Positions 36,598 to 58,775 of a stretch of 64,000 nt of DNA are shown here, piece after piece. Position numbers and translations under genes: made by a program. The DNA lies in contig NZ_LT608328.1 of NCBI RefSeq assembly GCF_900095795.1, positions 3,217,001 to 3,281,000 on the forward strand. The letters run 5' to 3'. Numbering within the stretch: the first letter of the stretch is position 1; each line of letters begins with the position of its first letter. This DNA comes from Petrimonas mucosa. GTDB taxonomy: Bacteria > Bacteroidota > Bacteroidia > Bacteroidales > Dysgonomonadaceae. The notes below the pieces were generated by a model that worked only from the letters and a program-made list of their open reading frames with translations, ran no database searches and was not told the DNA's origin.

Positions 36598-37734
36598 ATG
36601 GATATCGATTTCTCGAAATTTACCGTACTGGCTGTTGACGATATTCCGACCAACACCCTGCTGATCAAGATGACATTGGAGCAGTCAGGATTGAGGGTGA
36701 TTACCGCGCAAAATGCGGAAGAGGCTTTCCAACTGATCGAACAGGAGAGACCCGACCTGATATTGCTGGATGTGCTGATGCCCGGCATTGACGGTTTTGA
36801 GATGGCCAGACAGCTGAAGGAGCATCCCGAACATAAATGGGTACCCATCATCTTCCTCACTGCACTGGACTCCACCACCGATATTGTGAAGGGATTCCAG
36901 CTGGGGGCCGACGATTACGTCACCAAACCGTTCAACAAGGAGGAGCTGATGGTCCGGGTAAGTCATCAGATCCAACTGCTGGAAGCCAAACGCACCATTG
37001 AGCAGCAGAAAAAGGAGCTGGAGGAGATCATTGCAGGAAGGGACGCCATGTACTCGGTGATCGCACACGACCTGCGAATGCCGATGGCAACCATGAAAAT
37101 GATCCTCAACGTGCTATTTCTCAAAATAAAGGAGAATGAGCATACCTGCAATGATCTGTTAGAGTCGGTACAGAGTGCCAACGAAATTTGCGAAGAGCTC
37201 TACATCCTGCTCGACAACCTGCTGAAATGGACCAAGAGCCAGCTGGGAAGGTTAAAAGCATTGCCCCAGTTCTTCTACCTCGGCGAGTTCATCAAAGGCG
37301 ATGTTGAAGTTGCGGCAGCCCATGCCTCAACCAAGAATATAGGGATCCGTTTCGAGTCGGTCAACAACGAAGAAACAGGAGTTTATGCCGATACCGACAT
37401 GATCAAGACCGCGGTGCGCAATCTGATCAACAACGCTATCAAGTACAGTTACCGTGACAGCGAGATCACCATCTCGATTGAGCGGGAGGCTGACCGTGTG
37501 ATCTGCAAAGTAGCCGATACCGGATGCGGTATCTGTGAGAAAGATCAGGCCAGGCTGCTGAACCCGGCTACCCATTTTACCACATATGGAACCGAAAATG
37601 AGTCGGGTTCGGGTCTCGGACTGTTGCTGACCGACACTTTCCTGAAGCTGAACAACGGCCTTCTCTTCTTTCATTCAAAACAGGGCGAGGGTTCCACCTT
37701 CGGGTTCTCATTGCCGGCACATACCGGCAAGTGA
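36598..37734 (+). CDS. receiver-first sensor histidine kinase (REC-HisKA-HATPase)
   Basis: A 378-residue cytoplasmic signalling protein. The N-terminal receiver has Asp14/Asp15, acceptor Asp58 (LILLDVLMPGIDG), Thr89 and Lys110. A short coiled linker (125-148) leads to a histidine kinase with His157 (IAHDLRMPM), an N-box (NLINNAIKYS) and G-boxes (DTGCGI; GSGLGLLL). There is no membrane segment or PAS domain, so the receiver itself is probably the input, making this a phosphorelay or adaptor kinase. It converges with the hybrid kinase that ends the polysaccharide operon, 14 bases apart. No dedicated output regulator is adjacent; the single-domain regulator at 55950-56366 is a candidate partner. 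Confidence 0.92.
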   Translation: MDIDFSKFTVLAVDDIPTNTLLIKMTLEQSGLRVITAQNAEEAFQLIEQERPDLILLDVLMPGIDGFEMARQLKEHPEHKWVPIIFLTALDSTTDIVKGFQLGADDYVTKPFNKEELMVRVSHQIQLLEAKRTIEQQKKELEEIIAGRDAMYSVIAHDLRMPMATMKMILNVLFLKIKENEHTCNDLLESVQSANEICEELYILLDNLLKWTKSQLGRLKALPQFFYLGEFIKGDVEVAAAHASTKNIGIRFESVNNEETGVYADTDMIKTAVRNLINNAIKYSYRDSEITISIEREADRVICKVADTGCGICEKDQARLLNPATHFTTYGTENESGSGLGLLLTDTFLKLNNGLLFFHSKQGEGSTFGFSLPAHTGK

Positions 37735-37748
37735 GCATGAGTTGCCGC

Positions 37749-39980
37749 CTATAAGAACTTTCCAATGGTGGCAAGAAGCAGTTCCTTGTCGAAAGGTTTG
37801 CCAAGTATATCCTGGCAACCCTTATCCAGCAGCAACTCCTTGTCCAGATCCAACATATAGGCGCTCACTGCCACGATGGGCGGGTAGAAAGGCGATCTTT
37901 GCCGGATCTCTTGCATCGCCTCGATCCCGTCCATCTCGGGCATCCTGACATCCATCAGTATCAGGCTGGGCTGTTCCGACAGGAAGATCTCTACCGCTTC
38001 CCGCCCGTTCCTTGCGTGGAGCAGACGATACCTATTACCAATCATCGCATGGATCAGTTCAAAATTATCGTCAATATCCTCTGCCACCAGGATGGTTGCC
38101 TTGATCTCGTCGGGCTGATTCAAGAGCTGGCTTTCCGACCGGCTCTCAAAGAGCTGCTCTTCCAAATCGACAATAATCAGGGGTATCCTACAGGTAAAGG
38201 TTGCTCCCTCCCCAAGCCTGGAAGCGACCGTAATATTTCCGCCCAACCGCTCCAGTATCGTCTTGCAGATGGAGAGCCCGAGGCCGGTACCCTGAGCAAA
38301 ACTGTCCACCTTCACAAACCGCTCGAACACCTTTTCCAGCTTATCTTCGGGAATACCGATGCCGGTGTCCCTCACATAGAGCTCAATCCAGTCGCCATGC
38401 ACCCTGTATCCTATAGTAATGGTTCCGTTGGGGGTAAACTTGATTGCATTGTCCACCAGATTGGCCAACACCTGAATGAGACGGTTCCTGTCGCTTCGGA
38501 TGGTGGAATCGTGATCGGGAATCTCCAGCTCCAACCTGATTCTTCCGGCGTAGAGCTGATAGGTGTTGATGATCTCCCGGCAAAGGTCATTCATGCTCAC
38601 AGCCGAGAAGTTGAAGACAAGTGTACCCGACTCGATCCGGGAGAGGTCAAGCACCTCGTTGATCAGCATGAGCAGCCGTTTGTTGTTAGATTCGATGATC
38701 TCCTGAAACCTTCTCCGCTCCTCACGCGATTCAATATCGGCCATGATTGCCGAGAAACCCACAATCGCATTCAGCGGTGTCCGGATCTCGTGACTCATAT
38801 TGGAGAGGAAAGCAGATTTGAGCCGATCCGACTCCTCCGCCCGCTCCTTTGCCTCTTTCAGTCTCCTCTCATAGCGGGTAAACTCGGAGATGTCGTGACC
38901 GAGAAACCATATGATATCCTCGCCATACTCGTTCTGTACAACAAAGGAGTAGTACTCGGTATTGATCACGTTAAACTCCGCGTAGGGGTGTCTGCAGGTA
39001 TATTTTATGGTGTTGTTGCTCGCACGCAGTGAATCGAGAAACTGCACCCACTTCTCCTCGCCCCTGAAGTTGGCCATCAGCTCGTAGACCTTGTAGCCGG
39101 TAATATCAACATCTACGGGAATATGATTCATCTTGCGGCAGAGTTGGTTGACAAAGACCAGTGTCCCGTCGGCCTTGGCGGCAAAGATGGTCTCATAGCT
39201 GTTGTTTACTGCCGTGATGATCATATTGAGCCTGTCCCAGTTGGAGACAATATCGTCGATATTCTGGGTATAGCCGTCAATAATCAATTCCCCGTTCCTC
39301 AGGTGATACCGGTTCAATATCTTGGTTCGCATGTAATATGCCCGCCCATCCTTCACCACCCGGTAATCGTAGGTTCGGTGGCGGGTTTCAGGATCATTCA
39401 GGTAACTTACAAGCTTCTCCCGATCGTCCGGATATACATTGGTCAGGAACTGATCCAGTGTTATCTCCATCTCTTCCCCGGCATTGACCAGCAAACCCAC
39501 ATAACCGTAATAGTAAAACTTGCCGGTAGACGGGGTGTAGTTCCAATAACTGATCCTTGCCGCTCTTCCTGTCTCCTTGAGCCGCTCATTGGCCAGTTGC
39601 AGGCTCAGCTTCATCTGGCTCCTCTGTGTAATATCGCGGTATACCAGCAACAGGTGGTCGTCGTCATACTTCTGGATGATGCATTTGAAGTAGTACATTC
39701 TGTCGGGCGATGGCAAGTCATAATTCGCATTGGAGGCAATGCCGGTATGTGCAACACTCTCCATTGCAGGTCGCAGTTCCCTTACGGTCTCCGTCGGGAA
39801 GTATTCAAACAGGTTTCTTCCCAGCAAGGTAAGCTCCCGGTTTACATAAGGGTTGTCGGGCGTTTTGACAATCATGTCTACACAGGTCCCGTCATTCTTT
39901 ACCATCAGCAGGGTGTCGGTCATCATCTCCAACAGTTTTACTGCCTGGCTCTTATCATGCAATATTCCTTTTGTTTTCAT
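37749..39980 (-). CDS. PAS-containing hybrid sensor histidine kinase
   Basis: A 743-residue cytoplasmic hybrid kinase. PAS-like sensor domains occupy about 15-120, 135-245 and 250-370 (the second with TYDYRVVKDGRAYYM, typical of PAS_3). The HisKA domain has His397 (MSHEIRTPLNAI), followed by N-box NLVDNAIKFTPNG, G-boxes DTGIGIPEDKL and GTGLGLSICK, and a C-terminal receiver with acceptor Asp677 (LILMDVRMPEMDG) and a Lys in LGKPFD. No transmembrane segment is visible. It is the last gene of the polysaccharide operon and overlaps the preceding glycosyltransferase gene by four bases, so it should be made together with the polymer machinery. Confidence 0.94.
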   Translation of the reverse strand: MKTKGILHDKSQAVKLLEMMTDTLLMVKNDGTCVDMIVKTPDNPYVNRELTLLGRNLFEYFPTETVRELRPAMESVAHTGIASNANYDLPSPDRMYYFKCIIQKYDDDHLLLVYRDITQRSQMKLSLQLANERLKETGRAARISYWNYTPSTGKFYYYGYVGLLVNAGEEMEITLDQFLTNVYPDDREKLVSYLNDPETRHRTYDYRVVKDGRAYYMRTKILNRYHLRNGELIIDGYTQNIDDIVSNWDRLNMIITAVNNSYETIFAAKADGTLVFVNQLCRKMNHIPVDVDITGYKVYELMANFRGEEKWVQFLDSLRASNNTIKYTCRHPYAEFNVINTEYYSFVVQNEYGEDIIWFLGHDISEFTRYERRLKEAKERAEESDRLKSAFLSNMSHEIRTPLNAIVGFSAIMADIESREERRRFQEIIESNNKRLLMLINEVLDLSRIESGTLVFNFSAVSMNDLCREIINTYQLYAGRIRLELEIPDHDSTIRSDRNRLIQVLANLVDNAIKFTPNGTITIGYRVHGDWIELYVRDTGIGIPEDKLEKVFERFVKVDSFAQGTGLGLSICKTILERLGGNITVASRLGEGATFTCRIPLIIVDLEEQLFESRSESQLLNQPDEIKATILVAEDIDDNFELIHAMIGNRYRLLHARNGREAVEIFLSEQPSLILMDVRMPEMDGIEAMQEIRQRSPFYPPIVAVSAYMLDLDKELLLDKGCQDILGKPFDKELLLATIGKFL

Positions 39981-41182
39981 TTGAGATGGTTAGGGTGGTT
40001 GGTGCTGCTCCTTTTCGCTTTCTCCCATGCCGCATTGCCATTGAATCTACACAGGTAGACCGCTCCCTTGAAAGGATTGAGATTCATAAAGAGAAAATAG
40101 TATGGAATAAACAGCAGTTTATTTTTGATGGCCCGGTGGGCGAGATAGGATCCCAGCCATGCGGCGAGATAGAATAGTACCTGCAGCAGCGCAGTGAGTT
40201 GAAAAAACCAGGCCGGCTCAACCCGCTGGAGGAGCAGGAGCAGATTCATCGGCAGGAGCAGAAAGAGGGCAACCGGAGTGATGGTCCAACGCAACACCCG
40301 GTGAGAGAGAAGCTGAAAAGTGAGCCATCCATGCCGGAACGGATTGAGCAGCCTCCTCAGGCGCCAGACCGACTGTAACCCGCCAGCTGCAATCCGCACC
40401 TTTCTCTTCTCCTCCTCCTGCATGTTGAGGGAGGCTGACTCCACGGCATAAGCCTCCTTGCAATAATGGATGCGATAGCCCTCGGCTGCGATCTGCAACG
40501 ACAGGACAAAATCGTCGAGCAGGGTGTCTACCGGTAGCTCCCTGAAGAGATGAGTACGGATGGCGAACAGCTCCCCGGCAGCACCCATGGTGGAGTATAA
40601 GCGTGAATCGAGCTCTTTCAGCAGCGACTCATACCGCCAGTAGGCACCTTCCCCTCCCGACGAGGCGGTATCCTTCTCCTTTACCGCAATCCGCTTCTCT
40701 CCGGCCACACACCCAGTTTTGGGATCAGTGAAAGCTTTCACCATCTCCTTCAGTGCTGCAGGGTTGATCAAGGTATTGGCATCGGTAAAGAGAACAACGG
40801 GACTCTTTACAAAGGTCATCCCACGGTTGATCGCAGCGGTCTTCCCTCTCCTCTCCGGCTGGAAATGAACCTCCACTCCGGGATATGCCTTTAGTTTCTC
40901 GTTGGTCAGGTCCGTGGATCCGTCGGTCACCCAGAGTATCCTGAGTCTCTCGGCCGGATAATCGAGCGCCAGGCAGTTTGCCATCTTCTCCTCCACCATC
41001 TCCTCCTCGTTGTAGGCGGCAATAAAGAGGGTCACTTCAGGCAACTCACCGGGCACTACTGACTGGCGCTTCGGACGGAACAGCTCCCGTATCTGGACCA
41101 GCAACCAGAGGAGAATGCCATAACCGATATAGGTGTAGAAAACCAGCAAAAGCGAGAAATAGAAGAGTGATGTTAAAGCCAT
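39977..41182 (-). CDS. membrane glycosyltransferase, family 2
   Basis: A 401-residue GT2 enzyme with an N-terminal TM helix (about 5-32) and three C-terminal hydrophobic segments (about 300-375). The GT-A domain carries TLFIAAYNEEE, WVTDGSTD, FTDANTL (metal/donor DxD equivalent) and a downstream DDFVLSLQ acidic motif. The layout resembles processive or polyprenyl-linked GT2 enzymes. It overlaps the hybrid kinase gene by four bases and follows the frameshifted GT2 gene. Sugar specificity cannot be told. Confidence 0.9.
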   Translation of the reverse strand: MALTSLFYFSLLLVFYTYIGYGILLWLLVQIRELFRPKRQSVVPGELPEVTLFIAAYNEEEMVEEKMANCLALDYPAERLRILWVTDGSTDLTNEKLKAYPGVEVHFQPERRGKTAAINRGMTFVKSPVVLFTDANTLINPAALKEMVKAFTDPKTGCVAGEKRIAVKEKDTASSGGEGAYWRYESLLKELDSRLYSTMGAAGELFAIRTHLFRELPVDTLLDDFVLSLQIAAEGYRIHYCKEAYAVESASLNMQEEEKRKVRIAAGGLQSVWRLRRLLNPFRHGWLTFQLLSHRVLRWTITPVALFLLLPMNLLLLLQRVEPAWFFQLTALLQVLFYLAAWLGSYLAHRAIKNKLLFIPYYFLFMNLNPFKGAVYLCRFNGNAAWEKAKRSSTNHPNHLK

Positions 41183-41197
41183 GTCATAGCGGTTTAG

Positions 41198-42062
41198 TTA
41201 CTTTCGGTTTGTGATCAGGTTCGACTCCTCATCCTCGGGAGGTGTTGTTTGTCGAGTGAAGAGGAAGTTGATATTCTTCAATCCCTTAATCATCCTCACT
41301 TTAAAACTGTTGAAGAGCGATCCGTCCGCATGGAGTGTATTTCCGGCAGTAACCGCACGCGCCTTGCGGGAAGTGATCAGTTTAATCCTGCCATAGTTCA
41401 TCAGTCCCAGTGCCATCGAACCATCTTCTCCCCTGATCAGCTCCACCCGGTAGCCAACCTTCCGGCCATACTCCGTCCTGTATGCAAAGACCATCCCCCT
41501 CACTCCCCTTTCGGGTCGCTTGATAAAGAGTGCGCGGATATAGAGGTCTCTGATCGCCTCGTAGAGCATCAACCCCCACCTGGAATGACTCTTGTCGGGC
41601 ACAAAACTCCAGAGGGAGGATACAGCCATCACGCCCGGCTTCTCAAGCTCACGGATCATGGTCTCGATATAATGAGGCGGATAGAGGGTGTCGCCATCGA
41701 TGCAGATGCAGTATTTGCCCCTGGCATGCTCCTGGCCACACGCCCGTGCGTAACCGGGACTCTTCCTCTCTTCAAAAAAGCAGGGCACCCCTGTTGCATG
41801 AAAGAGCTCACCCGTCCTGTCGGTGGAACCATTGTTTACCCCGATCACCTCAACCGGATAGCGGCACCGATTGTCGGCGAGCGACCAGAGAGAGCCCAGG
41901 AAGGAGGCGGGTCTCCTCATTATGGGCAATCACCACTACCGAAGCGATAGGGGTGTCGCTCTGCATCCACTTCAGCTTCTCTCTCACCCCTTTCACTACC
42001 GCTGTCGGAACATCGGCAAAAGGTTTCTCAAAGACAGTCAAATAGTTATCGTACCAGGACAT
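41198..42062 (-). pseudogene. glycosyltransferase family 2 gene split by a frameshift
   Basis: The first frame runs from ATG 42062 through the GT2 start (ASVVVIAHNEETRLLPG), and the rest continues in another frame from about 41900 (SLWSLADNRCRYPVEV, GVNNGSTDRTG, CIDGDTLYPP) to the stop at 41198. The span is 865 bases, one more than a multiple of three. Losing one G of the GGG (forward CCC, 41895-41897) or gaining one CT unit in the adjacent (CT)4 run (forward AG repeat, 41887-41894) would rejoin the frames into about 287-288 residues, a normal GT2 length. Everything else looks intact. It may be a sequencing error, a fresh mutation or slippage-based switching. The short frame starting at 41929 is not a separate gene. 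Confidence 0.85.
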
Positions 42063-42095
42063 TTAAATAAGATATGTTGAAGCTATTTATTATTA

Positions 42096-43238
42096 TCATT
42101 TAGTTACACCAATCAGCTCTTCAAACAGATCCATCCATTGCGACATGATGTTCTCCTTCTTGAATCGCTTTACACTCTCTCTGGCATTGCGCCCCATCTC
42201 CCTCCTTATATCTTCATTTTCAATCAGATAACAAATTTTTTCGGCCAATCCTGCAATATCCCCATTTTTCACCAGCAACCCGTCCAGACCGTCGGTGATG
42301 ATATCCCTAGGGCCGGTGGGGCAGGCAAACGATACTGGTGGAACACCGCAGCTCATCGCCTCGGTCAATACCAGACCAAAACCTTCGTATCTTGAACTCA
42401 AGACAAAAATAGAACTTTCCAGGTATTTCTCCGTAATATGGCTGGTTTTTCCATGCGTAATGAGAGTCCCTGCAAGGCCAAGGTTGTGGATTCTTCTCTC
42501 CAGCTCATCCCGATCTCCTTCACCATAGAGATGAAGCGACCAGTCGGGATGCTTTTCTGCGACAAGTTTCCATGCCTCGGCCAGGAGATCAAATCCTTTC
42601 TGATAGGCGTAACGCCCCACGGCAATCACCCTTTTGTTCGTCAGTGCAGCAGAAACCTCACACTCCATCTCCTGGTAGTTATGGATGACTGCACTATTGT
42701 GCAACTCGGGCCACATCTCCTGCTCCTCCCATGTCAAGAAAACGATCTTGTCGAATCGTTTCAACTTGTTTACGTACCTGCGCTCAAGATATCGATGGAT
42801 CAGCCTGGAGGATTTGCGAATCCTCCAGGATAAGGCCGAATAGGCATTCCTGGTGATGTGAGACTCTCCTATCTTCAGACTCCCGTCACGAAGTTTATGG
42901 ATAAAATTGCACTCCCGCCGCAGGGTGGAGATTGTAATGTCGGGTTTCGTCTCGATAAGGAAGCGGGTGAATCGCCGCTTGAATTGCAAGTACTTCACCG
43001 GATAGGTGAGAATCTTCATCAAGAGCGACCTCTGCTTCGGATTGTCGATAACCACCCCAAGGTCGTAATGGTTGACTCGTGGCGACAACGGATAGTAACA
43101 GTCGCGAGCTTGTTGCTCCGAAGTGAGAATGGTGACCTCATAACCGGGCAGGCCGGCCAGGTAATTTGCCTTGCCGGTAATCACCCTTTCAAGCCCTCCT
43201 GCAATATAGAGTGAGGGGATGTAATAGACAATTTTCAT
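42096..43238 (-). CDS. glycosyltransferase family 4
   Basis: A 380-residue GT-B enzyme. The N-terminal IPSLYIAGGLERVI glycine-rich acceptor-side motif and the C-terminal donor-binding block (VGRYAYQKGFDLL; SSRYEGFGLVLTEAMSCGVP near residue 280, with the E-x7-E pair) place it in GT4, with several retaining transferases of O-antigen and capsule synthesis. Sugar unknown. It overlaps the following GT-D gene's stop by four bases. Confidence 0.92.
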   Translation of the reverse strand: MKIVYYIPSLYIAGGLERVITGKANYLAGLPGYEVTILTSEQQARDCYYPLSPRVNHYDLGVVIDNPKQRSLLMKILTYPVKYLQFKRRFTRFLIETKPDITISTLRRECNFIHKLRDGSLKIGESHITRNAYSALSWRIRKSSRLIHRYLERRYVNKLKRFDKIVFLTWEEQEMWPELHNSAVIHNYQEMECEVSAALTNKRVIAVGRYAYQKGFDLLAEAWKLVAEKHPDWSLHLYGEGDRDELERRIHNLGLAGTLITHGKTSHITEKYLESSIFVLSSRYEGFGLVLTEAMSCGVPPVSFACPTGPRDIITDGLDGLLVKNGDIAGLAEKICYLIENEDIRREMGRNARESVKRFKKENIMSQWMDLFEELIGVTK

Positions 43239-44137
43239 ATCTTGCAGATTATCTGGCTAAAATAGCTCTCCTCGGTTGTCATGCCAATCTCCCTGCCTGT
43301 CAATGCCTCATTGACATACTTCGAAGGCACACTCACCTTACGTCTGGCCCCCATCCGGAACCATTCATACTCAATATCAACATGCCCTATATCAATAGCT
43401 TGATAACCAATCTTATGCAAATCGTAAGCCAGAACAGTGGCCGTGGGCCCCAACGCCAGCAGAACCAGCACCCCCTTATCCTGTTTTGACACCTCTTCCA
43501 GAATGAGGTCATACTTTTCAAATGCATTGAGAGGAGGAGACAAAATGCGTCGGATGGACGCGGCATTGTCGAATAGATCGTTACCCACACCCAGCCGGCT
43601 CTTCTCACCCTCTACAACAAGCAGATCGCGCTTATTCCATATCGTTTTCAACATATTGAACCAGCCGGCGCTCTGCTCTTTCAACTTGAAGTCGATGTAG
43701 GGTCTCGTAATGAAAGTATTGCCGTAAGTGCGTCCACCCACCAGATATCGGTCCCACAAATCCCCGTAGAGATAGAAATGGGTACGCCAGAAACGCCTGG
43801 CACTGCGGGTATACCGGGATAACTCCTCAAACGTGTCGGAGATGCATACCAGGTGACCATCCTGCTGGCTCGCCATCACCTCTTTCAGTCTCTCCGACAA
43901 CAGTGTCGACTCCTTCTGGAAACGGATCGGCCGCCCCCCGATCAGTAACATCTCACCGTCGCCGAAGCGGCTCACCGAAGCACCGGTTGAAACAATCCTC
44001 CGGATGGTCTCATCAATAGAAAGCACATCAGGAATGATCTTTTGCCTTTTCCTGGCGAGCAGGTAGAGCAAGTTATAAAATTCCACGACACAATTGTACC
44101 TGATCTTCTCCAGCAAAATAGCCGATAACCCATTCAT
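43235..44137 (-). CDS. GT-D fold glycosyltransferase (DUF1792/SP_1767 type)
   Basis: About 300 residues with the hallmarks of the GT-D class: SVSRFGDGEMLLIGG, whose Asp/Glu serve as the metal-binding DxE motif, and the C-terminal GYQAIDIGHVDIEYEW. Studied members add glucose to glycans on serine-rich adhesins; here the acceptor is more likely the repeat unit of the polysaccharide. An in-frame ATG at 44191 would overlap the upstream gene by 43 bases; 44137 gives a 11-base gap and fits better. Confidence 0.86.
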   Translation of the reverse strand: MNGLSAILLEKIRYNCVVEFYNLLYLLARKRQKIIPDVLSIDETIRRIVSTGASVSRFGDGEMLLIGGRPIRFQKESTLLSERLKEVMASQQDGHLVCISDTFEELSRYTRSARRFWRTHFYLYGDLWDRYLVGGRTYGNTFITRPYIDFKLKEQSAGWFNMLKTIWNKRDLLVVEGEKSRLGVGNDLFDNAASIRRILSPPLNAFEKYDLILEEVSKQDKGVLVLLALGPTATVLAYDLHKIGYQAIDIGHVDIEYEWFRMGARRKVSVPSKYVNEALTGREIGMTTEESYFSQIICKI

Positions 44138-44148
44138 ATCCAAACTTA

Positions 44149-45267: not shown

Positions 45268-45294
45268 ATCGTATTCCACAAACTTCCAATCAAT

Positions 45295-47720: not shown

Positions 47721-48319
47721 TGCTCTTTTCTCTGGTCATACCGTTTTACAACCTGTGCCGGATTACCCGCGGCAACGCAGTATGATGGAATATCCTTTGT
47801 TACTACAGATCCGGCACCTATCACCACATGCTCACCGATATGCACACCTGCCAAGATGGTGCTGTTGGCCCCGATCCAGACATCATTCCCGATGACGATC
47901 CCGGCAGTTGTCACTCCCTGATTGACAATCTCGGTTGTAACATCCATATAGACATGATTCAATGCCGCTATCACCACATGCTGGGCGATGATCACGTTGT
48001 TGCCGATTTTTGCGGGACCAATCAATGTATTGCCAATTCCTACCCGTGTATTGTCTCCGATAATGATATCCCCCACCGCATTGTTGACCACAGTGAAATC
48101 TTCCACCACCGTATTCCGTCCGATTTGAAACTTGCGGAACGGGACTATGTCACACCTTACACTCCGGCAGATCACTGCCCCCTTTCCCCTCTTGATGTAT
48201 AGAAACTGGAAAAGGCGTAACCAGAACCTGGGCCTGATCTTCACCGGATGTATCATCATATCCAGTACGATCCTCTTCAACCGTGGATTCTCCATTATGA
48301 TCTCCTTGATTCTACTCAT
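47699..48319 (-). CDS. hexapeptide-repeat acyltransferase
   Basis: About 206 residues of left-handed beta-helix type: repeated [ILV]-G-x4 units such as IIGDNTRVGIGNTLIG, VIGNDVWIGANSTILAGVHIG and VVIGAGSVVTKDIPSYCVAAGNPAQVV, the last a standard signature of O-acetyltransferases. It likely O-acetylates a sugar of the repeat unit. The start at 48319 follows an A-rich stretch and leaves a gap to the upstream gene; ATG 48343, overlapping it by 11 bases, is an alternative. Confidence 0.9.
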   Translation of the reverse strand: MSRIKEIIMENPRLKRIVLDMMIHPVKIRPRFWLRLFQFLYIKRGKGAVICRSVRCDIVPFRKFQIGRNTVVEDFTVVNNAVGDIIIGDNTRVGIGNTLIGPAKIGNNVIIAQHVVIAALNHVYMDVTTEIVNQGVTTAGIVIGNDVWIGANSTILAGVHIGEHVVIGAGSVVTKDIPSYCVAAGNPAQVVKRYDQRKEQWIRIER

Positions 48320-48332
48320 CTTTTTTTTGCTG

Positions 48333-50395: not shown

Positions 50396-51821
50396 TTTCA
50401 CAAATCTCCTTATCCAATTTTGGCCCCATAAGCATGAATGCCATACAGATGTATATGATCGGACCGTTAGGAAACTGCTGCAGCATCTCATTTCCATAGG
50501 CGCTTACCAGCATGCCTGCCACCCCGCCCACCAGGCCTGCAAGCACTCCTCTCAACTGGCTGCTCCTGATCCTGAACCAGATATCATAGCCCGCCTTGAT
50601 GAATGACGAGAAAAAAATTAGCAGAAAGAGTGAAAGTCCCACAATCCCTGTCTCAACCCAGACAAACACCAGTGAGGTATCGGTCGGCAACTGATAGAGA
50701 TAGTCGCCCGGTTTCGTTCGTTTCGCCTCCCCAATTCCCACTCCAAATGGGTGCTCTTTCATGAAAACCTTCATCTTTTCCTGGTTCTGTTTACGCAACA
50801 GGTAAGATGCATCTTCAGTCACGTTGAAGGCAGACCGCATCCGCCTGATCTCCGCATTTCCTTGACCGATATAGGTGAACTTGAAAAAGATGAAGAGTCC
50901 CACAATAAGGATAATTCCGGGTATCAGGACTTTCCACTGCTTTGAGAGCAACAGGAAAGCTGTAAATCCGGCAAAAGGGACCACTATGGCCGCGCGGGTA
51001 CCGGAGATCATCATGGCGTAGCCGGCAAGCAGAGCCACCACCAGGTAGTAGATCCTTAAGCCAACGGGGCGCATATAGAGAGCCGCTACACCAAATACCA
51101 CCAGCGACATGCCCATATTACACCCGAAGCTGGCGGCATCGGTAAAAAAAGAGAAATAGCGGATGCCGGTGTGGATGATATGGGTTGAGCTGCCTCCCGA
51201 AACGAAAAGCCAGTAATTCTCGGCAGCATCAAAGCCCACAAATTTCTGCATAAGTGCCTTTGCAACACCAGCCATGGTAAGGATCGACCAGACAAGAAGA
51301 AAGAGTTTGAGATATCGGTAGCGGTCCAACAAAAGGGCTGTCAGTAACGGAAAGAGAAAAAGGTAGAGGGCCAGGGCCCTTACACCTGCAGCCCAGTTGT
51401 TGAGATCTGCCTCTGGGTTAAACACCATCAGCAGACAATATATCAACCAGATAGCTGTTGAAAGTGTCAAGATGTTACGCAGGTTTCTCCAAGGCAGCGG
51501 ATATCTGAAACTGTGTAGCAGGATCATCAGGAAGGTTACCAGCAAGAGGCCGTCCATTACGATTCCGCCGGGCAAACCGGGAATATAACGGGTAACTCCC
51601 ATGACAAAATAGTTTGCCACAAAAAGTGGCAACAGGGCATAGAAAGGCTTCTCCACGAAACGAATCAGCAGATAGAGCAGCAGAGGCAACAGCGCGACCG
51701 CCGTTGCGGGGATCCATCCAAAACGCAGCAACAGAAATACGAAAAGGCCCAACAAAAGTATTGTAAGCAGGACAATCTGCCCTCCTCCCTCCCGTTGTGA
51801 ATCTGTCAGATGCAATCTCAT
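50382..51821 (-). CDS. O-antigen polymerase/ligase-like membrane protein (Wzy/WaaL)
   Basis: A 479-residue protein with roughly twelve hydrophobic segments and a large periplasmic loop in the C-terminal half (about 310-380, with HPFGVGIGEAKR near 358), which is the O-antigen ligase domain pattern. By position beside the Wzc-like and flippase genes it is probably the polymerase joining repeat units. It starts three bases after the Wzc-like stop codon. Confidence 0.88.
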   Translation of the reverse strand: MRLHLTDSQREGGGQIVLLTILLLGLFVFLLLRFGWIPATAVALLPLLLYLLIRFVEKPFYALLPLFVANYFVMGVTRYIPGLPGGIVMDGLLLVTFLMILLHSFRYPLPWRNLRNILTLSTAIWLIYCLLMVFNPEADLNNWAAGVRALALYLFLFPLLTALLLDRYRYLKLFLLVWSILTMAGVAKALMQKFVGFDAAENYWLFVSGGSSTHIIHTGIRYFSFFTDAASFGCNMGMSLVVFGVAALYMRPVGLRIYYLVVALLAGYAMMISGTRAAIVVPFAGFTAFLLLSKQWKVLIPGIILIVGLFIFFKFTYIGQGNAEIRRMRSAFNVTEDASYLLRKQNQEKMKVFMKEHPFGVGIGEAKRTKPGDYLYQLPTDTSLVFVWVETGIVGLSLFLLIFFSSFIKAGYDIWFRIRSSQLRGVLAGLVGGVAGMLVSAYGNEMLQQFPNGPIIYICMAFMLMGPKLDKEICENETV

Positions 51822-51824: not shown

Positions 51825-53999
51825 CTAACTGTTTCCGGAAGTTGAAAGCCCATACTGCATGTAACGGTAAAAGAGCTTCTTCAAGAAGGTCTTGGGTGGC
51901 AACATTCCGGTAAAACTCTCCAACACCTGTTTCTCGGCATGATTGAGGCAAATGAGGGTGGGAGTACTGCCCGACTGCTCCTTCAGGCGGTCGAACAGCT
52001 GCTTGTTCCGGTCGCTCCATATCTTGTCGGCCCTGAAAAGGGTGAGGTTGATCGACGCCTCCTGGAGAATCGGTCTGGGTATGTTATAATGCTGAAGCGG
52101 CGCGTGCTCCACCAGAATGATCCGCCGAGAAGAGGTGGAGTGGTCGGGTAAAAAGCGCCGGATAGTGTCGGCAAAAAGGAAATCGGATGAGCCCGGTATA
52201 AAATCTTCACCGTAACGGAGCGACACTACCGGAATCTCAAGCCCAGTCCAATAGTTAGCCAGTTGTTCCGCAAGAAAACTCTTCCCGCAGTGCTCCTTTG
52301 TGCTGATAATATTTACAATGGGACTCTGGTCGCCGGGATGGAAAAAATCCTGGATGGCGTTGCCAAGATACTGTATCGCCTGCTCCTGATAATATCCCTG
52401 ATATCTCCGTTGCCGGAAGTTGTACTTTCCGGGTAGTGCCCCCAGTACACTGCTCCCGGTGATCTTCTTTGTCCGTAACGGATCCCTCAAGGTACGATCC
52501 AGCAGATCGAACAACATGAAAATGGTAAGGAGGATAAATAGGCTGCCGGCATAGGCGCCCATAACCATCTTTTTCCGCTTCGACGGCTCGGTGTTGAGAG
52601 GGAAGACCGGAGGATTGATCAACTGTAGCGATGCCGAGTTCATCTCTAGGCTTTTCAGCTGCAGCCTGGCTGCATTCAGGCTGGCCAGAATAGATAAGTA
52701 GTTGCGCTCAATGAAATCGATGCTTCGTTCCTGTCGCTTGATGGTGGACCCGATAGGAGAATAGTGGGAATAGAGATGATCGATCTCCTCGATCTTATCT
52801 TCAATCACCTCAAGTTCCGCCTTGGCCTTCTCCATCAAAAGTAGCTCCTCCAGCCACTGCGTAACAAAATTGCTGGTTGGGTATCCCTCACGTGTAAATT
52901 TCCGTTCACCATACCGCCGGGTAAAAGCTTCAAGCTCCTTTTTAGCATTGGCCAACTCTGCCCGGTACTGTTCCAGCCGGTTGAAGGCTGGACTACCAGA
53001 CAGTGAGTCGGTATAGAAAGTTTCCAGTTCGGCAATCCGGGTATTCAGATTGGAGACCTGGTTGAGTCGCGACAGAAATTCTGCATTGTCTCGCAGATAA
53101 AGGATATTCTCATCCTTTAACGACTCGAGGTAACTGACCGAGGCCTTGGCATTGTTATACCTGAGCAACACGTCGTTATGCTTCAGTTGTATCTGCATAT
53201 CAAGCGCCGCTACCTGTTCGGTCTGTTCAAAGTAGTTGATAACCCGATTACTTATATTGTAATTTGTAAGAGAATCTTCACTCTCACGTAACTGCTTGCC
53301 CACCCTCTCGAGCTCCTCCTCGAAATATTTTATCGTACTGTTGGTCGAACCGAACTGCAGCTTCCGGTACTCCTTCGAATAGAGCTGCTCCAGCAAGATC
53401 AATGTCTGATAGGCCACACCGGGATCATTTGCCGAATAGGATACCTTTAGCATATCACTGCTTCCCAGTCGCGTCACATTGATCTTCTTCAGACTCCCGT
53501 AAGCGTAATGTGGATGGTTCCAGTTGAAAAGACCGTATACGAAGTTGGTGGGGGATGCCTCCTCATATTTTTTCAAATTTTCCACCGTCCTATCCTCTGA
53601 ATCTTTGACTATCAATCTCTTTACCTCATCGGGAGTGATCCGCTGCAAGTGACGGTAATTGGGTGCGCTGATATACTCGTTGTCCCTCTCCGGATCACCG
53701 TAGATCATATGCCTGGCATAGAGGTGAAGAGATACCTCATGCAAAGTCTCTTTCGACAGGATGATATTGATGATGTTGTCGATGGTATTGTTGATAACCG
53801 TACTGCTTTCCACCCTGGTATCACCCACCTCCAGTACGTTCCCCGAGATCACGCCGGTAAAGATGGTCATGTCTACCGGATAGGATTTCTCCAGATTCCT
53901 TGTTCCAATGATTACCACAAATGCAACCAGCAGGGGTGCAACAATGATCCACCAACGGATACGATAGATAAGCCTGAAAAAATATTGTAAAATCTCCAT
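51825..53999 (-). CDS. Wzc-like chain-length determinant with degenerate tyrosine-kinase domain
   Basis: A 724-residue inner-membrane co-polymerase. TM1 is near residues 15-33, a long periplasmic coiled coil covers about 230-430, and a second TM at about 478-500 is preceded by a Pro-containing loop (INPPVFPLNTEPSKRKK). The cytoplasmic part resembles a BY-kinase: SVLGALPG, then a Walker A-like STKEHCGKS near 561. The DxDxR Walker A' motif is missing (VVSLRYGED instead), the Walker B position reads IILVEHAP, and there is no C-terminal tyrosine cluster beyond two tyrosines in RYMQYG. It probably regulates chain length without autophosphorylation. Confidence 0.87.
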   Translation of the reverse strand: MEILQYFFRLIYRIRWWIIVAPLLVAFVVIIGTRNLEKSYPVDMTIFTGVISGNVLEVGDTRVESSTVINNTIDNIINIILSKETLHEVSLHLYARHMIYGDPERDNEYISAPNYRHLQRITPDEVKRLIVKDSEDRTVENLKKYEEASPTNFVYGLFNWNHPHYAYGSLKKINVTRLGSSDMLKVSYSANDPGVAYQTLILLEQLYSKEYRKLQFGSTNSTIKYFEEELERVGKQLRESEDSLTNYNISNRVINYFEQTEQVAALDMQIQLKHNDVLLRYNNAKASVSYLESLKDENILYLRDNAEFLSRLNQVSNLNTRIAELETFYTDSLSGSPAFNRLEQYRAELANAKKELEAFTRRYGERKFTREGYPTSNFVTQWLEELLLMEKAKAELEVIEDKIEEIDHLYSHYSPIGSTIKRQERSIDFIERNYLSILASLNAARLQLKSLEMNSASLQLINPPVFPLNTEPSKRKKMVMGAYAGSLFILLTIFMLFDLLDRTLRDPLRTKKITGSSVLGALPGKYNFRQRRYQGYYQEQAIQYLGNAIQDFFHPGDQSPIVNIISTKEHCGKSFLAEQLANYWTGLEIPVVSLRYGEDFIPGSSDFLFADTIRRFLPDHSTSSRRIILVEHAPLQHYNIPRPILQEASINLTLFRADKIWSDRNKQLFDRLKEQSGSTPTLICLNHAEKQVLESFTGMLPPKTFLKKLFYRYMQYGLSTSGNS

Positions 54000-54011
54000 G
54001 CTGCTATAAGG

Positions 54012-54746
54012 CTATCGATTAAGTAACTTGGTTTTTGAGAGCACTTCAAGCTGCAATAATGCCTTGTTCAACTCCGAACGTGTCTGCTCGTAAGACTCCA
54101 GAAGATTCATCTGAATGCTCTTGATCTGTGAAAGCTCACCGGCATCGATCTTGCCATTGAGAAAATCCTGCTGGGCCAGTTCCGACTGCACATTGGCAAA
54201 GGCGAGCGATTCGGCCTTCAGTCGCAAAACCGACAACTCCTTCACCGCCTTTGAATACATCTCAATGATCCTCATCTTCTGTTCGTCATGCCACTTCTCC
54301 ATCTCCACCTTCGTGGCTTCAGTCTTCAGCAGCTGTCTATGGATCCGGTTACCACGGTCGAAGAAATCATCGAAGGGGAGTGAAAACGACACGCCCACAT
54401 TATACCAGTTCTGTCTCGCACCCGAATATTGATAAAAGAGTGGAGTATCCGTATCGGAGAAAGCGGAGTTGATTCCCATCAGCCCCCATTGGTAGGTTGA
54501 GTTGAACCGGAAATATTTCAACCAGCTCCTCCTCTCGGTTTTCAATGCACTGGCCTCCTCCTCCATCTTCACCTTATAGTAATCCACCGCCGCACTGTTC
54601 TTGGCATTCTCGAACAGCTCTTCAAGCGAGGGCAGCTGTAAATTGAGGTAATCGTCCGAAGTGAGGGATTCAATACCCACCTGTGCCATTCCTGAAAAAA
54701 ACGGTATGAAGAACGAAAGAGCTATGGCAATGGATAATCTGTTCAT
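54012..54746 (-). CDS. half-length TolC-family-like exported protein
   Basis: A 244-residue protein with a signal peptide (MNRLSIAIALSFFIPFFSGMAQ). After it comes PSLEELFENAKNSAAVDYYKVKMEEEASALKTER, the opening helix of TolC-like proteins, then beta segments (FNSTYQWGLMG; WYNVGVSFSLPFDDFF) and long helices to the end. Ordinary TolC proteins have two such repeats in over 400 residues; this is one repeat. It stands where other clusters encode the outer-membrane export protein, but a normal Wza gene is absent here. The start at 54746 is chosen at the signal peptide; the frame goes on to 54803. Confidence 0.8.
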   Translation of the reverse strand: MNRLSIAIALSFFIPFFSGMAQVGIESLTSDDYLNLQLPSLEELFENAKNSAAVDYYKVKMEEEASALKTERRSWLKYFRFNSTYQWGLMGINSAFSDTDTPLFYQYSGARQNWYNVGVSFSLPFDDFFDRGNRIHRQLLKTEATKVEMEKWHDEQKMRIIEMYSKAVKELSVLRLKAESLAFANVQSELAQQDFLNGKIDAGELSQIKSIQMNLLESYEQTRSELNKALLQLEVLSKTKLLNR

Positions 54747-54771
54747 ATTGGCACAATTAAAGAATTGGTAT

Positions 54772-55953
54772 CTACACATCCTCTTTCTGTATAAAAGCTG
54801 CAAATGTACGGAAAATTATCTTTAAATCCAACCATATGGTATAGTGCTGAGCGTAGTAGATATCGAGTTGTTTTCGCTCTTCTGCAGATAGTTTCCCTGC
54901 ATCACCCCTTTTCTGCACCTGCCATAATCCGGTCAGCCCTGCCGGAGCAATAAAACGCTCCACGCTGTTATCACCGGTAAGCAGCTCTGCCTCGTACAGG
55001 GGTAATGGGCGGTTGCCCACAAACGACATCTCCCCCTTCAGGATATTGATCAGTTGGGGAAGTTCGTCGATACTGTACTTGCGAATAAATTGTCCTACCC
55101 GTGTTACCCTGGGATCCTTCTCGATCTTCACAAAAGCCCTTTCCGTTTTTTGCCGGTTTTGTGCAATATACTCCTCTTCGGGAAGAATGAAATCGTCGTC
55201 AACCAGGAAGGTCTGGCCCAAACTCTCCAACTGTTCAAGATCCAGACCGTCATCTATGGGAAGTTGCTGTTCTTCCGTCGGAGTTGTAGTAGCATACTGG
55301 TTGTACTGTTCCACCTCTTTCAGCCGTTTATCGGCATCCACGTACATCGACCTGAATTTCCAGAAATCGAAGATATGGTAATTGGTGCCAACCCTTCGGG
55401 ATTTGTAGAATATGGGTCCCTTGCTCTCCAACCTGATGGCCAGGGCAACCAATAAAAAGAGAGGCGAGAGAAACAGCAGGGCACAAATCGAGACAACCAC
55501 ATCAAACGCCCGTTTTGTCACAGGCATCTTGAACTGGGGCAGCAGTGTGGTATCGCGTTGCCGGCGGCTTTGAAGATGAGGTCGGTACTTGCGGATAAAC
55601 TGAAAAAAGTGCGACAGCAACTCCGCATTGGCCTCCGGAGAAACGGTATCATTCACTCCGGCACGGATATAGTCCAAACGCTCCGCTCCGGGCAGGCCGG
55701 CTGTAATCAGCAGAATATAGGCGTGGGGAAAATTCCTGCGCAGGAATTTAATGCCTGCCTCATCCTCCTGCAACGACTGCTGTTCACAGAAGACAACCGG
55801 ATCATCGTCCAGCGAATTGTCAATCAACCATCTGGCTGCATCTACGTAACGGCTGAAGACCCGTGGCGACTCAGACACCGCCTCCCTCAATATTCCGACA
55901 AAATGATGAGCCAGCTGTTGATCACTACCAATAAAAAAAATCGGTGGATTCAC
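54772..55953 (-). CDS. polyprenyl-phosphate sugar transferase with N-terminal pseudo-receiver
   Basis: A 393-residue protein starting the lipid-linked repeat unit. Residues 1-122 look like a CheY fold without active-site residues: GSDQQ replaces the acidic pair, FCEQQ stands where the acceptor Asp would be, and the Lys position is not kept (DTVSPEA). Residues 145-393 are a bacterial sugar transferase (WbaP/WcaJ type): a hydrophobic helix at 152-174, FWKFRSMYVDADKR (197-210), KYSIDELPQLIN (292-303) and FVGNRPLP (311-318). An acidic insertion of about 65 residues (211-277) separates the catalytic halves. The start overlaps the stop of the response regulator gene by four bases. Confidence 0.9.
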   Translation of the reverse strand: MNPPIFFIGSDQQLAHHFVGILREAVSESPRVFSRYVDAARWLIDNSLDDDPVVFCEQQSLQEDEAGIKFLRRNFPHAYILLITAGLPGAERLDYIRAGVNDTVSPEANAELLSHFFQFIRKYRPHLQSRRQRDTTLLPQFKMPVTKRAFDVVVSICALLFLSPLFLLVALAIRLESKGPIFYKSRRVGTNYHIFDFWKFRSMYVDADKRLKEVEQYNQYATTTPTEEQQLPIDDGLDLEQLESLGQTFLVDDDFILPEEEYIAQNRQKTERAFVKIEKDPRVTRVGQFIRKYSIDELPQLINILKGEMSFVGNRPLPLYEAELLTGDNSVERFIAPAGLTGLWQVQKRGDAGKLSAEERKQLDIYYAQHYTIWLDLKIIFRTFAAFIQKEDV

Positions 55954-56366
55954 TGCAACACCTTTCTGATGCGGACCTTCAGTTCCTGGGGATTAAACGG
56001 TTTCAGGATAAAGTCGGCAGCACCCTCTTCCAGCATCTTAATCCGGAAGTCACTGCTCTCCTCACCCGATAAAATCAAAACGGGAATATCCTTATACAAT
56101 CCATTCTGCTTGATAAAAGAGAGAAACTCATCACCACTCATGCCCGGCATCCAGATGTCAAGCACAATCAGATTGGGTCTATTGCCTTCAAACAACCATT
56201 GCATTGCCTTCAATGGCGAATCGAAATAGGTGATTTCGTATTCGTCCGACAGATATACTGTGATGATCCGGGCAATCGCAATCTTATCGTCAATAATCAG
56301 TAACTGCTTCTTGGTGGCATTCACAACAGCTTGCTCTTTTTTTAATATTGCAGGAAACATTACCAA
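55950..56366 (-). CDS. single-domain response regulator
   Basis: A 138-residue receiver without an output domain. All key residues are present: Asp26/Asp27 (LLIIDDK), acceptor Asp70 (LIVLDIWMPGMSG), Ser100 and Lys122 (LKPFNP). Its stop overlaps the start of the sugar transferase gene, whose own N-terminus is a pseudo-receiver. It probably acts by protein contact, for example as a phospho-switch on the sugar transferase or as a relay intermediate for the hybrid kinase at the operon's end. That partner choice is inference. It starts six bases after the LruC-protein stop codon. Confidence 0.93.
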   Translation of the reverse strand: MVMFPAILKKEQAVVNATKKQLLIIDDKIAIARIITVYLSDEYEITYFDSPLKAMQWLFEGNRPNLIVLDIWMPGMSGDEFLSFIKQNGLYKDIPVLILSGEESSDFRIKMLEEGAADFILKPFNPQELKVRIRKVLQ

Positions 56367-56372
56367 CTATCT

Positions 56373-58775
56373 TTATTTTGAATGATAAACAAAGTTCAGA
56401 TCAGGACGGGTATACCAATCTTTCGCCTCTTCACCGGCACTTACGGCCCATTTCTCAAGATCGGGATATGCTTTCCTTATCGAAGTAAACTCCTTAGGAT
56501 AGGGGCAAGAACCGGGAACGGCCAATCCCCAAATCATATTTTTATCGGAGACATAGTATCTCCTCTCCTCAACGCTCGAATTATCGTCACCAACCTTGCC
56601 CAATATCTCCTTGTTGGCCTTGTCGGTAGGTACAAAACCGGCCATATGCACTTCATATCGCCTGCTCGAGTAGCCTCCGTTTACAATAAAGGGATTCAAC
56701 CGGTCAATCGCTACATCCTCAAAGTTCACCGGAGTATTAAACTGGATGGTGACGGTCACCTTCAGCGGCTCTCTGGTCACCGATTGATCTCCGGCAGTAG
56801 TATTTACCATGGTTCCTGCATCCACGCCAAATGCCATGTGCACGTCATCGAAGATGGGGATTACCGCCAGGCTTTGACCCGACTCAAGACCATTGGCCAA
56901 AATGCTCCCGAACACCGTATTGGTTCTGCCCGGATTTGTGGTCACTCCGACACCCTTTACCGATGCAGGAGCAACACCGTCGAGCTGCATTCCCAATGCC
57001 AGTTTTTTGATTCCTCCCGCGGCTTGCAGTGTAACTGCCAGGTCAAGTTGAGATACCCGGTTGCCCTGCTCGATGGTATACGACGGCTTGACATTCAGTA
57101 CCACGTCGTTCATATCGTAGTCGCCCAGCAACGGCCAGTTGTCCTCAAACATGTAGGTGACATCAATACCGTTCCAGATGATCGGGAAGCTTGGATTCAC
57201 CGGAGGTTGCCCGCTCCCGCCGACAGGATTGCCTCCATTGTTGCATTCGGTAGCCTCAATGGTGACCGACGACTCACCCTTCTGCACCCATGAAGCAGGC
57301 GCCTTAAGTGAAAAGGCGGTTCCGGAACTGAGATTCGAGAAATTTGAATTCTCCAGCTCAAGATTTCCCTCAATATCCAGGTTGTACCAACCGTTGAAGA
57401 TGATTTTCTCCAGTCGGGCCAGTGCTGTTTTGGAACCAATACCGTTGATGCAACTTATGGTGGAGTTGAAACTGATGGAGCCGGTAACCTCGAAGATGGC
57501 ATGTGAGTCCAGATCGAACTGGGTCCCCGAAGCCAGGGTATATTCATCAACCGACAAAAGAGTCTCCTCGGCACCAATGAACACCGTACCGCTTGTGGTC
57601 ACTTTGCCAAACTCGGCAAGACAGTGGTTGTAAAATATTCCATTCATAAACTCGCCATTGGTTACGGTAACCTTCTTACTGTTTCTTATGGTAGTCCCGT
57701 TGACATGGAGATCTGCTATTTCGAGGAGATTATTGTTGACCACCTCACCGTTAGTGAAGTTCGCTTTAGCAATGATCAGCCTGTTGTCGTTGACAATGAT
57801 GTTTTCTGGGCTGTTTACCTGAAACTCTCCCACGCTGGCATTACCGGCATTGTACATCATCCCCAGTGACAGAAAGTGGATCAGGCTGGCATCCAGTATT
57901 CCGTTGTTGATAACCTTTCCGGCACCGGTAAACCTGATCGTCGTCTTCTCTCCGATAAAGCTTCCAGAGGGAGCGATCACCAATGTTGAGTTATTGTTGC
58001 CGGTTATCTCCACTGTTCCGCTCGCTGCAAAACATCCTCCATCCTGCACGATAAGCTTGGCTCCGTCTTGCAGTACAAAACCGGAGGAGCTGTTATTCCA
58101 GGTTCCTTCCACATACAATGCAACATTACCTTCATTGGGGAATTGGATTGCTCCGGTATATGTTCCTCTTATCACATAGGCTTTATTTGTTTCCAGTGTA
58201 TAGTTGGCAGGTGACTGCTCGTTGATCACGATTGCATCCGCAGGAGTTGGATAGCTGGTCTGCAGATCTGCAGGAGCAGCACGAAACGATGATGCTGAAG
58301 CAGTTGCGCTGCGTAAAGATGAACTGCCATGGAGAAACGAAACCGACAACTGGGTGGCATCATCAACCGATACGGCTGTTACTTTCTCCATCCCGGCAGG
58401 ATCGGTCTGCTTGATAAAGATTGTTTCCAGACCATTTGGCAAGGTTGGGGAAAAAGTGAAGTTGATTCCCTTTTTAGCCACCCCCTTACCCAACAGTGAG
58501 GCATTTTCATAAAAAAACGGGTGAGCATCATAGAGCTCCACCAAATAGTAATAGTTCCCGTCGAATCGGTCATCGACCTCGATATCGAGGTTCACTGAAC
58601 GAAGGGTCGACCAATCGAAGCTGGACGGGACTGCAATGTTGTCCCCGAAAAGGGAGGTTCCTTTACCTTCCATTCTCTCAGGTTGGTAATAGTCGTGTTC
58701 ACATCCTGTTAGAATAGGATAAACTCCTGCCAGGAGGAGTAGCGCAAAAAAGAGAGTTCTTTTTCTGGTTTTCAT
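56373..58775 (-). CDS. LruC-domain lipoprotein heading the polysaccharide operon
   Basis: An 800-residue surface or periplasmic lipoprotein. The signal peptide ends in a lipobox with Cys25 (ILTGCEHD). The middle (about 180-520) is rich in repeating beta-strand segments (INEQSPANYTLETNKAYVI, VEITGNNNSTLVI and similar) and looks like a beta-helix. The C-terminal LruC/DUF4842 region begins near 530 with GIDVTYMFEDNWP and LGDYDMNDVVLNV; the Asp-rich loop may bind calcium. Function is unknown; the family includes a leptospiral outer-membrane lipoprotein. The start at 58775 is set by the signal peptide. It could bind or anchor the polymer. Six bases separate it from the response regulator gene. Confidence 0.86.
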   Translation of the reverse strand: MKTRKRTLFFALLLLAGVYPILTGCEHDYYQPERMEGKGTSLFGDNIAVPSSFDWSTLRSVNLDIEVDDRFDGNYYYLVELYDAHPFFYENASLLGKGVAKKGINFTFSPTLPNGLETIFIKQTDPAGMEKVTAVSVDDATQLSVSFLHGSSSLRSATASASSFRAAPADLQTSYPTPADAIVINEQSPANYTLETNKAYVIRGTYTGAIQFPNEGNVALYVEGTWNNSSSGFVLQDGAKLIVQDGGCFAASGTVEITGNNNSTLVIAPSGSFIGEKTTIRFTGAGKVINNGILDASLIHFLSLGMMYNAGNASVGEFQVNSPENIIVNDNRLIIAKANFTNGEVVNNNLLEIADLHVNGTTIRNSKKVTVTNGEFMNGIFYNHCLAEFGKVTTSGTVFIGAEETLLSVDEYTLASGTQFDLDSHAIFEVTGSISFNSTISCINGIGSKTALARLEKIIFNGWYNLDIEGNLELENSNFSNLSSGTAFSLKAPASWVQKGESSVTIEATECNNGGNPVGGSGQPPVNPSFPIIWNGIDVTYMFEDNWPLLGDYDMNDVVLNVKPSYTIEQGNRVSQLDLAVTLQAAGGIKKLALGMQLDGVAPASVKGVGVTTNPGRTNTVFGSILANGLESGQSLAVIPIFDDVHMAFGVDAGTMVNTTAGDQSVTREPLKVTVTIQFNTPVNFEDVAIDRLNPFIVNGGYSSRRYEVHMAGFVPTDKANKEILGKVGDDNSSVEERRYYVSDKNMIWGLAVPGSCPYPKEFTSIRKAYPDLEKWAVSAGEEAKDWYTRPDLNFVYHSK

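Follow-up and report, generated by a model that had tools for sequence, protein, structure and literature searches.

RESULTS

Signaling genes within a polysaccharide operon

The window considered here, a stretch of 64,000 nucleotides from Petrimonas mucosa (positions 3217001-3281000 of a 3.72 Mb single-contig genome), contains a run of 17 reverse-strand open reading frames (ORFs), from 58775 down to 37749, that joins genes for polysaccharide synthesis to genes for signaling proteins. A sequence-only reading of this DNA had placed a response regulator second in the run, a sugar transferase with a pseudo-receiver third, and a hybrid histidine kinase last, and the ORFs and Pfam matches confirm this order. 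The second gene encodes a single-domain response regulator (RR; 55950..56366, reverse strand; Pfam PF00072, Response_reg) and overlaps by 4 bp the third, which encodes a small monotopic phosphoglycosyl transferase (PGT) with an N-terminal pseudo-receiver (54772..55953, reverse strand; PF02397, Bac_transf). The last gene encodes a soluble hybrid histidine kinase (37749..39980, reverse strand; Pfam HisKA, HATPase, and receiver domains, with a weak PAS region in which PAS_4 falls below the Pfam cut-off). A second soluble kinase, which begins with its receiver (36598..37734, forward strand; Pfam receiver and HATPase), converges on the operon end, as the same reading had noted. Its description of few-base gaps or small overlaps holds for 15 of the 16 junctions, which measure between -116 and +15 bp. 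The single larger gap, of 166 bp before 41929, arises because a frameshift near 41.9 kb, either genuine or introduced by the assembly, interrupts the GT2 glycosyltransferase gene at 41198 to ~42062, an intact 285-aa relative of which is encoded at a second locus of the same genome (L197).

A live response regulator and a dead receiver

The RR consists of a receiver only, with no output domain, and retains the acidic pair D26 and D27, the phospho-Asp D70, S100, and K122 (ORF numbering). The complete set of both acids, phospho-Asp, Ser/Thr, and Lys is found in 86 of the 89 RRs encoded upstream of fused PGTs; one of the three lacking it belongs to L066 (1218-3886), where the RR gene is split into two pieces about 2 kb apart and the PGT is otherwise normal. 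In the PGT, the Bac_transf domain covers residues 147-388 (206 bits), and its catalytic half carries D151 and P164 with twelve residues between them (D-x12-P) as well as the Asp-Glu pair D296/E297, all invariant in a 30-row alignment (A4). The roles of these motifs are those given in a Myxococcus xanthus study (mBio 2025, PMC12802240). There is one hydrophobic segment, from residue 148. The catalytic domain also contains an insert at about residues 215-272, in which the consensus of the 30 relatives has several Cys; these look metal binding in the relatives and are lost in the window protein.

The first 140 residues of the PGT have no Pfam match, and the pseudo-receiver postulated there is instead recognizable by its fold. 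An AF2 model from three rows gives residues 1-120 a pLDDT of about 80, with five alternating strands and helices, and places Glu57 at the end of strand 3, where the phospho-Asp would be expected. In a full-length model, residues 176-393 had a pLDDT under 50 and were not used, and the fold matches rest on residues 1-136. The best VIA-align match to a receiver had a Z score of 15.4 (rmsd 2.1, 119 aligned), the 50 matches listed being receiver entries by title, among them 6oec, whose title describes a coiled coil fused to entry 3H5I, and the best Foldseek match had an E value of 2.3e-5. Across 92 aligned PGT relatives, the strand-1 acid is replaced by Gly in 77, the phospho-Asp column has 61 Glu and 9 Asp residues, and the complete set of phosphorylation residues occurs in none. 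Because the receiver fold comes without the whole phosphorylation set in any of these relatives, residues 1 to about 125 are, judging from sequence and predicted structure, a dead receiver, i.e., one that is not phosphorylatable in the usual way.

The response regulator gene accompanies the fused transferase

A search of the order recovered the PGT at an E value of 1e-80 or better in 64 of 393 genomes, with 75 matches. Outside the window there were 74 matches; loci were fetched for 58 of these and for G408 and G419; five weaker or edge matches (G085, G200, G298, G074, and G337) and 11 catalytic-only matches were left out, five of the latter serving later as controls. Together with the window, L004 (a Proteiniphilum metagenome-assembled genome [MAG], 59% identity), and L005 (a Bacteroidaceae MAG, 51%), the order sample comprised 63 loci. 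Searches at the levels of class (40 of 345 genomes) and phylum (23 of 296), whose lists overlap, contributed 36 long and 4 catalytic-only PGTs, with 7 that were catalytic-only or broken left out.

An RR gene lies directly upstream and on the same strand at 60 of the 63 loci in the order set and at all 36 long-form loci from the class and phylum, or 96 of 99 long-form loci altogether, which becomes 96 of 97 where upstream sequence exists, as two of the three misses are at contig edges with under 300 bp upstream. The N-terminus was recognized by a domain model in 92 of these 99 PGTs; six more are full length but unrecognized, and that of L055 is interrupted. In 80 of 97 pairs, counting L194 (an unfused PGT described below), no more than 30 bp separate the two genes. 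The control set consisted of every other PF02397 match (58 at an E value of 1e-20 or better, including one broken copy) in 24 genomes with a fused PGT; the fused locus was itself read in 23 of these and left out in G200. None of the 58 had an RR upstream or anywhere else in flanks of up to about 4 kb (the shortest upstream flanks being 569 and 937 bp), and the receiver model used does detect four receiver-bearing proteins of the window. The adjacency of RR and PGT thus exceeds chance (96/97 versus 0/58). We give no p-value for these counts because the relatives are not independent samples. The synteny check proposed with the sequence-only reading therefore favors coupling of the RR and PGT, and the opposite pattern, in which the glycan genes are kept while signaling genes vary freely, was not seen for the RR.

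The coupling can also be followed where either the dead receiver or the rest of the cluster is missing. Five of the 58 control PGTs are close paralogs without the dead receiver (scores of 390-411) and without an RR; they group together, nested inside the fused clade of a quick tree, and G098, G103, G203, and G216 each have an unfused paralog alongside a fused PGT with its RR. The flanks of these five had no match to models for an outer-membrane efflux-type protein (OEP), a polysaccharide co-polymerase (PCP), or Wzy (WZY), so the type of cluster differs there too. Better-matched controls are L193, L195, and L196, where OEP, PCP, and WZY are kept, the PGT is unfused, and no RR is present. At L194 (1523-4780), a hybrid kinase (685 aa), an RR, and an unfused PGT stand in a row, a simpler arrangement without a dead receiver. 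In all, the RR is missing beside eight of the nine close PGTs that lack the pseudo-receiver. Where the sequence extended 9 kb or more downstream (82 loci), the models found OEP at 66, PCP at 64, and WZY at 64, and distant homologs may escape them; Wzx was found at 40, a hexapeptide protein at 30, GT-D at 3, and LruC at 13. The RR is present at 81 of these 82, the exception, L067, being at a contig edge, and it is kept at all 13 loci that match none of OEP, PCP, and WZY. A test of independent pairs for pseudo-receiver and RR on the quick tree gave five supported pairs, too few for significance. We use only the placement of the unfused paralogs from this analysis, since L067 and L070 (contig edge) were left out of the tree and the motif rule misscored L045, L185, and L187 as lacking the N-terminus.

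The receiver-first kinase recurs near the transferase

The receiver-first kinase keeps D58 and K110 in its receiver and H157 at the HisKA place (A5, six rows). It had one strong match (42-58% identity) in each of seven relatives from the order that carry the operon (G408, G372, G355, G305, G078, G121, and G182) and two in its own genome, and none at 1e-40 in three sister species without the operon. A six-row profile matched 98 of the 393 genomes at 1e-75, scoring 438-634 bits in 18 of them and about 400 or less elsewhere; the subfamily line at 438 bits was set after the gap between 438 and 400 bits was seen, with five candidates scored per genome. Seventeen of the 18 genomes carry the PGT, compared with 64 of 393 overall, and in 14 of the 17 the kinase lies within 20 kb of it, at 0.5-18.6 kb and in varied places and orientations (G000, G060, G078, G121, G133, G165, G182, G205, G224, G289, G291, G305, G355, and G372). 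In G137 and G105, the two genes are on different contigs. G408, where they are about 21 kb apart and convergent, adds one to the proximity cases. The tree clade of the window PGT (24 rows, 20 genomes in the draw) includes 17 genomes with the kinase subfamily, one with a contig-edge piece (G023), and two with none (G002 and G163). That the position of the kinase is shuffled while its proximity is kept points to function rather than to one frozen operon.

The hybrid kinase fares differently. Relatives of its sensory half were found, among 25 genomes, as a second copy in its own genome (55%), in G408 (58%), and in G419 (47%), while no other match starts before residue 213; the relative is at the operon end in G408 and on a different contig from the PGT in G419. 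With a sensory-half relative beside the operon in G408 alone, the hybrid kinase ranks as the least conserved signaling part, and we rejected it as a conserved partner. The recurrent kinase is the convergent receiver-first one. Neither kinase, nor the RR, has a hydrophobic segment, and the input signal to the kinases is therefore probably intracellular.

The remaining genes and the boundaries of the block

The operon opens with an LruC/DUF4842-domain lipoprotein (56373..58775, reverse strand, like all of the operon genes that follow; PF16130, E 1e-48), which scores above the cut-off of NCBIfam TIGR04456 and whose ORF opens at 58874, with a lipoprotein-like start at 58775. Behind the PGT come a short OEP (54012..54803; PF02321) and a 724-aa PCP-like protein (51825..53999) with two hydrophobic segments by hydropathy, which has no Pfam match and is weakly chain-length-determinant-like (NCBIfam TIGR03007, 60 bits, below cut-off). 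The sixth gene encodes a membrane protein of the Wzy/ligase family (50382..51821; PF04932, Wzy_C, a family that takes in ligases too). It is followed by a Pfam-matched GT2 (49493..50497), whose true start is probably inside the ORF, close to the end of the preceding gene. Further Pfam matches are to a membrane GT2 (48333..49496), a hexapeptide acyltransferase-like protein (47699..48343), another GT2 (46746..47720), and a Wzx flippase (45295..46740; PF13440). The twelfth gene is glycosyltransferase-like (44149..45279; no Pfam match, GT4 by eye), and Pfam again identifies the GT-D glycosyltransferase (43235..44191; PF08759), GT4 (42096..43238), frameshifted GT2 (41198..42062), and final GT2 (39977..41182). 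PGT, Wzx, and Wzy, the parts that mark a Wzx/Wzy-dependent pathway, are thus all matched (PF02397, PF13440, and PF04932). The full Wzx/Wzy set that had been claimed stands as far as Wzx, Wzy_C, the PCP-like protein, and the short OEP are concerned, but it does not extend to an OPX/Wza protein (PF02563), for which none of the 21 block genes gave a match; three such genes occur in the genome, all outside the window.

The 21 block genes are those of a unit larger than the operon, at 33335-58775, which comprises the operon, the receiver-first kinase, a DHO_dh-family gene (35366..36346, reverse strand), an Exo_endo_phos family protein with three hydrophobic segments (34249..35346, reverse strand), and an NAD-dependent sugar epimerase/dehydratase (33335..34315, forward strand), the last three by Pfam. 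We take this block as the unit because it is absent from all four sister-species loci (L210-L213), in which the POR genes, starting at 33172 in the window, come immediately after pnp; the DHO_dh-family gene lies in this species-specific block. No PGT match at 1e-80 was obtained in any of the nine other genomes of the genus searched, and no repeats were found in the two stretches searched at the block boundaries. The Exo_endo_phos protein is a recurrent neighbor of the kinases (L197-L201), and the sugar epimerase adjoins the receiver-first kinase at L197, L198, L200, L206, and L216. G408, a relative from the same family (L198), has the same end, with a GT2, the hybrid kinase, and Exo_endo_phos followed by the convergent receiver-first kinase and the epimerase. 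L197 (C1:3318000-3337900) is a second copy of the cluster end in the window's own genome, with transposase-like genes alongside, and holds the epimerase, the receiver-first kinase, Exo_endo_phos, a receiverless kinase, two GT2s, and one GT4; a PGT search of this genome found no second fused PGT. Elsewhere in the window, at 24070-27051, a PPDK_N-domain protein shows, close to its N-terminus, a stretch with weak resemblance to a receiver that scores below the Pfam cut-off.

DISCUSSION

A proposed switch on the starter enzyme

The data are most consistent with the RR and the receiver-fused PGT acting together as a post-translational switch that controls the first committed step in making a surface polysaccharide of the Wzx/Wzy type, a reading drawn from sequence comparison to which we assign a probability of roughly 0.6. 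The receiver-first kinase would phosphorylate the RR, taking its input via its own receiver, perhaps from the hybrid kinase. RR~P would then dock, one receiver against the other, on the PGT's dead receiver and change the activity of the enzyme, most likely by activating it, by analogy with the action of EpsW~P on EpsZ. Such a change would take effect at the first step, while undecaprenyl phosphate is still uncommitted, and the cell could commit or save this carrier according to the signal. Receiver-receiver pairing is familiar from DNA-binding regulators. It is conceivable, though we hold this at somewhat short of even odds, that a live receiver (the RR) and a dead receiver in the starter enzyme make up a phylum-wide module, in which pairing switches a membrane enzyme and which in one clade has a receiver-first kinase of its own. 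The direct post-translational control proposed from the sequence finds partial support, in that the RR tracks the fused PGT and the EpsW-EpsZ pair provides a precedent (PMC12802240). A phosphorelay starting from the hybrid kinase is not supported, given how seldom this kinase is found beside the operon (G408 alone of 25 genomes), and neither is control free of transcriptional regulation. The sequence-only reading was correct that no DNA-binding regulator is seen locally, with no Pfam DNA-binding family among the 21 block genes, two of which have no Pfam match at all, but L004 (4515-6306) has an ECF-sigma-like and FecR-like pair (by eye) about 0.8 kb upstream of its LruC-RR-PGT operon.

On an alternative reading, suggested by that pair and by the fact that regulators act in trans, the local absence of a DNA-binding regulator would say little and control would be mainly transcriptional, which could coexist with the switch. 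Given an RR without an output domain and a block without a DNA-binding family, we regard mainly transcriptional control as rather improbable. The RR might alternatively hold the PGT inactive, by capping the dead receiver, or act in its unphosphorylated form, with phosphorylation as the releasing event. Only the sign differs here from the switch that we favor, and the comparative evidence is compatible with either, but EpsW~P, the only such case that has been studied, is an activator (PMC12802240), and we consider an inhibitory sign unlikely.

Single-domain RRs can serve as phosphoryl sinks, as DifD does (PMC12802240), and the presence of a kinase nearby in 14 of the 17 subfamily genomes would suit such a role here. 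Against it, the RR stays directly before the PGT in all 13 loci where the rest of the cluster differs and is missing beside eight of nine close PGTs without the pseudo-receiver, and we consider this explanation distinctly unlikely. It may also be that the pseudo-receiver does no more than aid dimerization or folding, in place of the N-terminal domain found in large PGTs, and that its link to the RR is historical. The pseudo-receiver is indeed poorly conserved, with a mean column entropy of about 1.7-3.5 bits by element versus 1.5 for the catalytic domain, but hitch-hiking should decay, whereas 96 of 97 loci in the order, class, and phylum samples retain the pair; we find this account very improbable.

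Several observations weigh against the switch. The Glu at the phospho site is found in 53 of 62 sequences within the order and in 8 of 30 outside it; it therefore cannot be essential, and we rejected the idea that it is a universal phosphomimic. Covariation between RR and PGT showed no clear enrichment: in an analysis of 89 RR-PGT pairs (effective number, 43), the N-terminal domain took in 44% of the top 200 inter-protein pairs and 36% of the top 50, where 33% would be expected. L086 has a fused PGT with no RR in the 4 kb upstream (no search for RRs was made elsewhere in its genome), and L194 has an RR with an unfused PGT. The kinase association is likewise incomplete: G327 has the two genes 537 kb apart, G059 has the kinase subfamily but no PGT, the reverse holds for G002 and G163, and the class-level genomes G658 and G704 have a fused PGT and no receiver-first kinase match at 1e-30. 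Finally, a kinase of any type was found at 21 of 103 loci in the flanks fetched (median of about 4 kb upstream and 14 kb downstream).

Relation to known systems and implications

The mechanism is known in kind. In M. xanthus, EpsW~P activates the PGT EpsZ; proximity labeling enriched EpsZ with EpsW except in the absence of the kinase, EpsW raised EpsZ activity in Salmonella, and modeling seats EpsW on the cytoplasmic part of the EpsZ dimer (PMC12802240). There, as here, a stand-alone, receiver-only RR without an output domain is linked to the PGT that initiates a Wzx/Wzy polysaccharide, but the architecture differs. EpsZ belongs to the large monoPGTs, in which a transmembrane bundle and a cytoplasmic DUF precede the catalytic domain, whereas the window protein is small, with one hydrophobic segment and a fused N-terminus of receiver fold, and is not of the EpsZ type; the kinase is DifE of a chemosensory system in the one case and, as a candidate, a soluble receiver-first kinase in the other (PMC12802240). 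The RR scores 50.4 bits against the EpsW model NF041866 (NCBIfam equivalog cut-off, 200) and the PGT 162.6 bits against the EpsZ model NF041877 (cut-off, 800). Because both scores are below the cut-offs and the build of the PGT is different, the pair in the window is not a member of the EpsW-EpsZ family. Compared with PglC/WbaP-type monotopic PGTs, with which it shares a catalytic domain with the D-x12-P motif and Asp-Glu pair, the window PGT differs in its N-terminal pseudo-receiver and the insert at about residues 215-272, with its Cys motif in many relatives. In its discussion, PMC12802240 describes small monoPGTs as monomers and mentions fusions to receivers in this group (O'Toole et al. 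2021, cited there). Like the window protein, these fusions combine a receiver domain with a small monoPGT; what is added here is the neighboring RR gene, the dead phospho site, and a kinase that travels with the PGT. We did not find the combination of an RR and a fused PGT in searches of an open-access library, and the main text of PMC12802240 has no occurrence of "bacteroid."

The authors of the Myxococcus study propose that RR control of the first enzyme is wider, and they raise as a question the rationing of undecaprenyl phosphate between competing glycan pathways (PMC12802240). The loci described here, about 100 in number, would represent a second and architecturally different RR-PGT system, in a phylum other than that of Myxococcus, and with natural with/without comparisons and a candidate kinase at hand, the idea is directly testable. 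For P. mucosa and its relatives, comparison of these sequences suggests that production of the polymer may be switched at the starter enzyme rather than at the gene.

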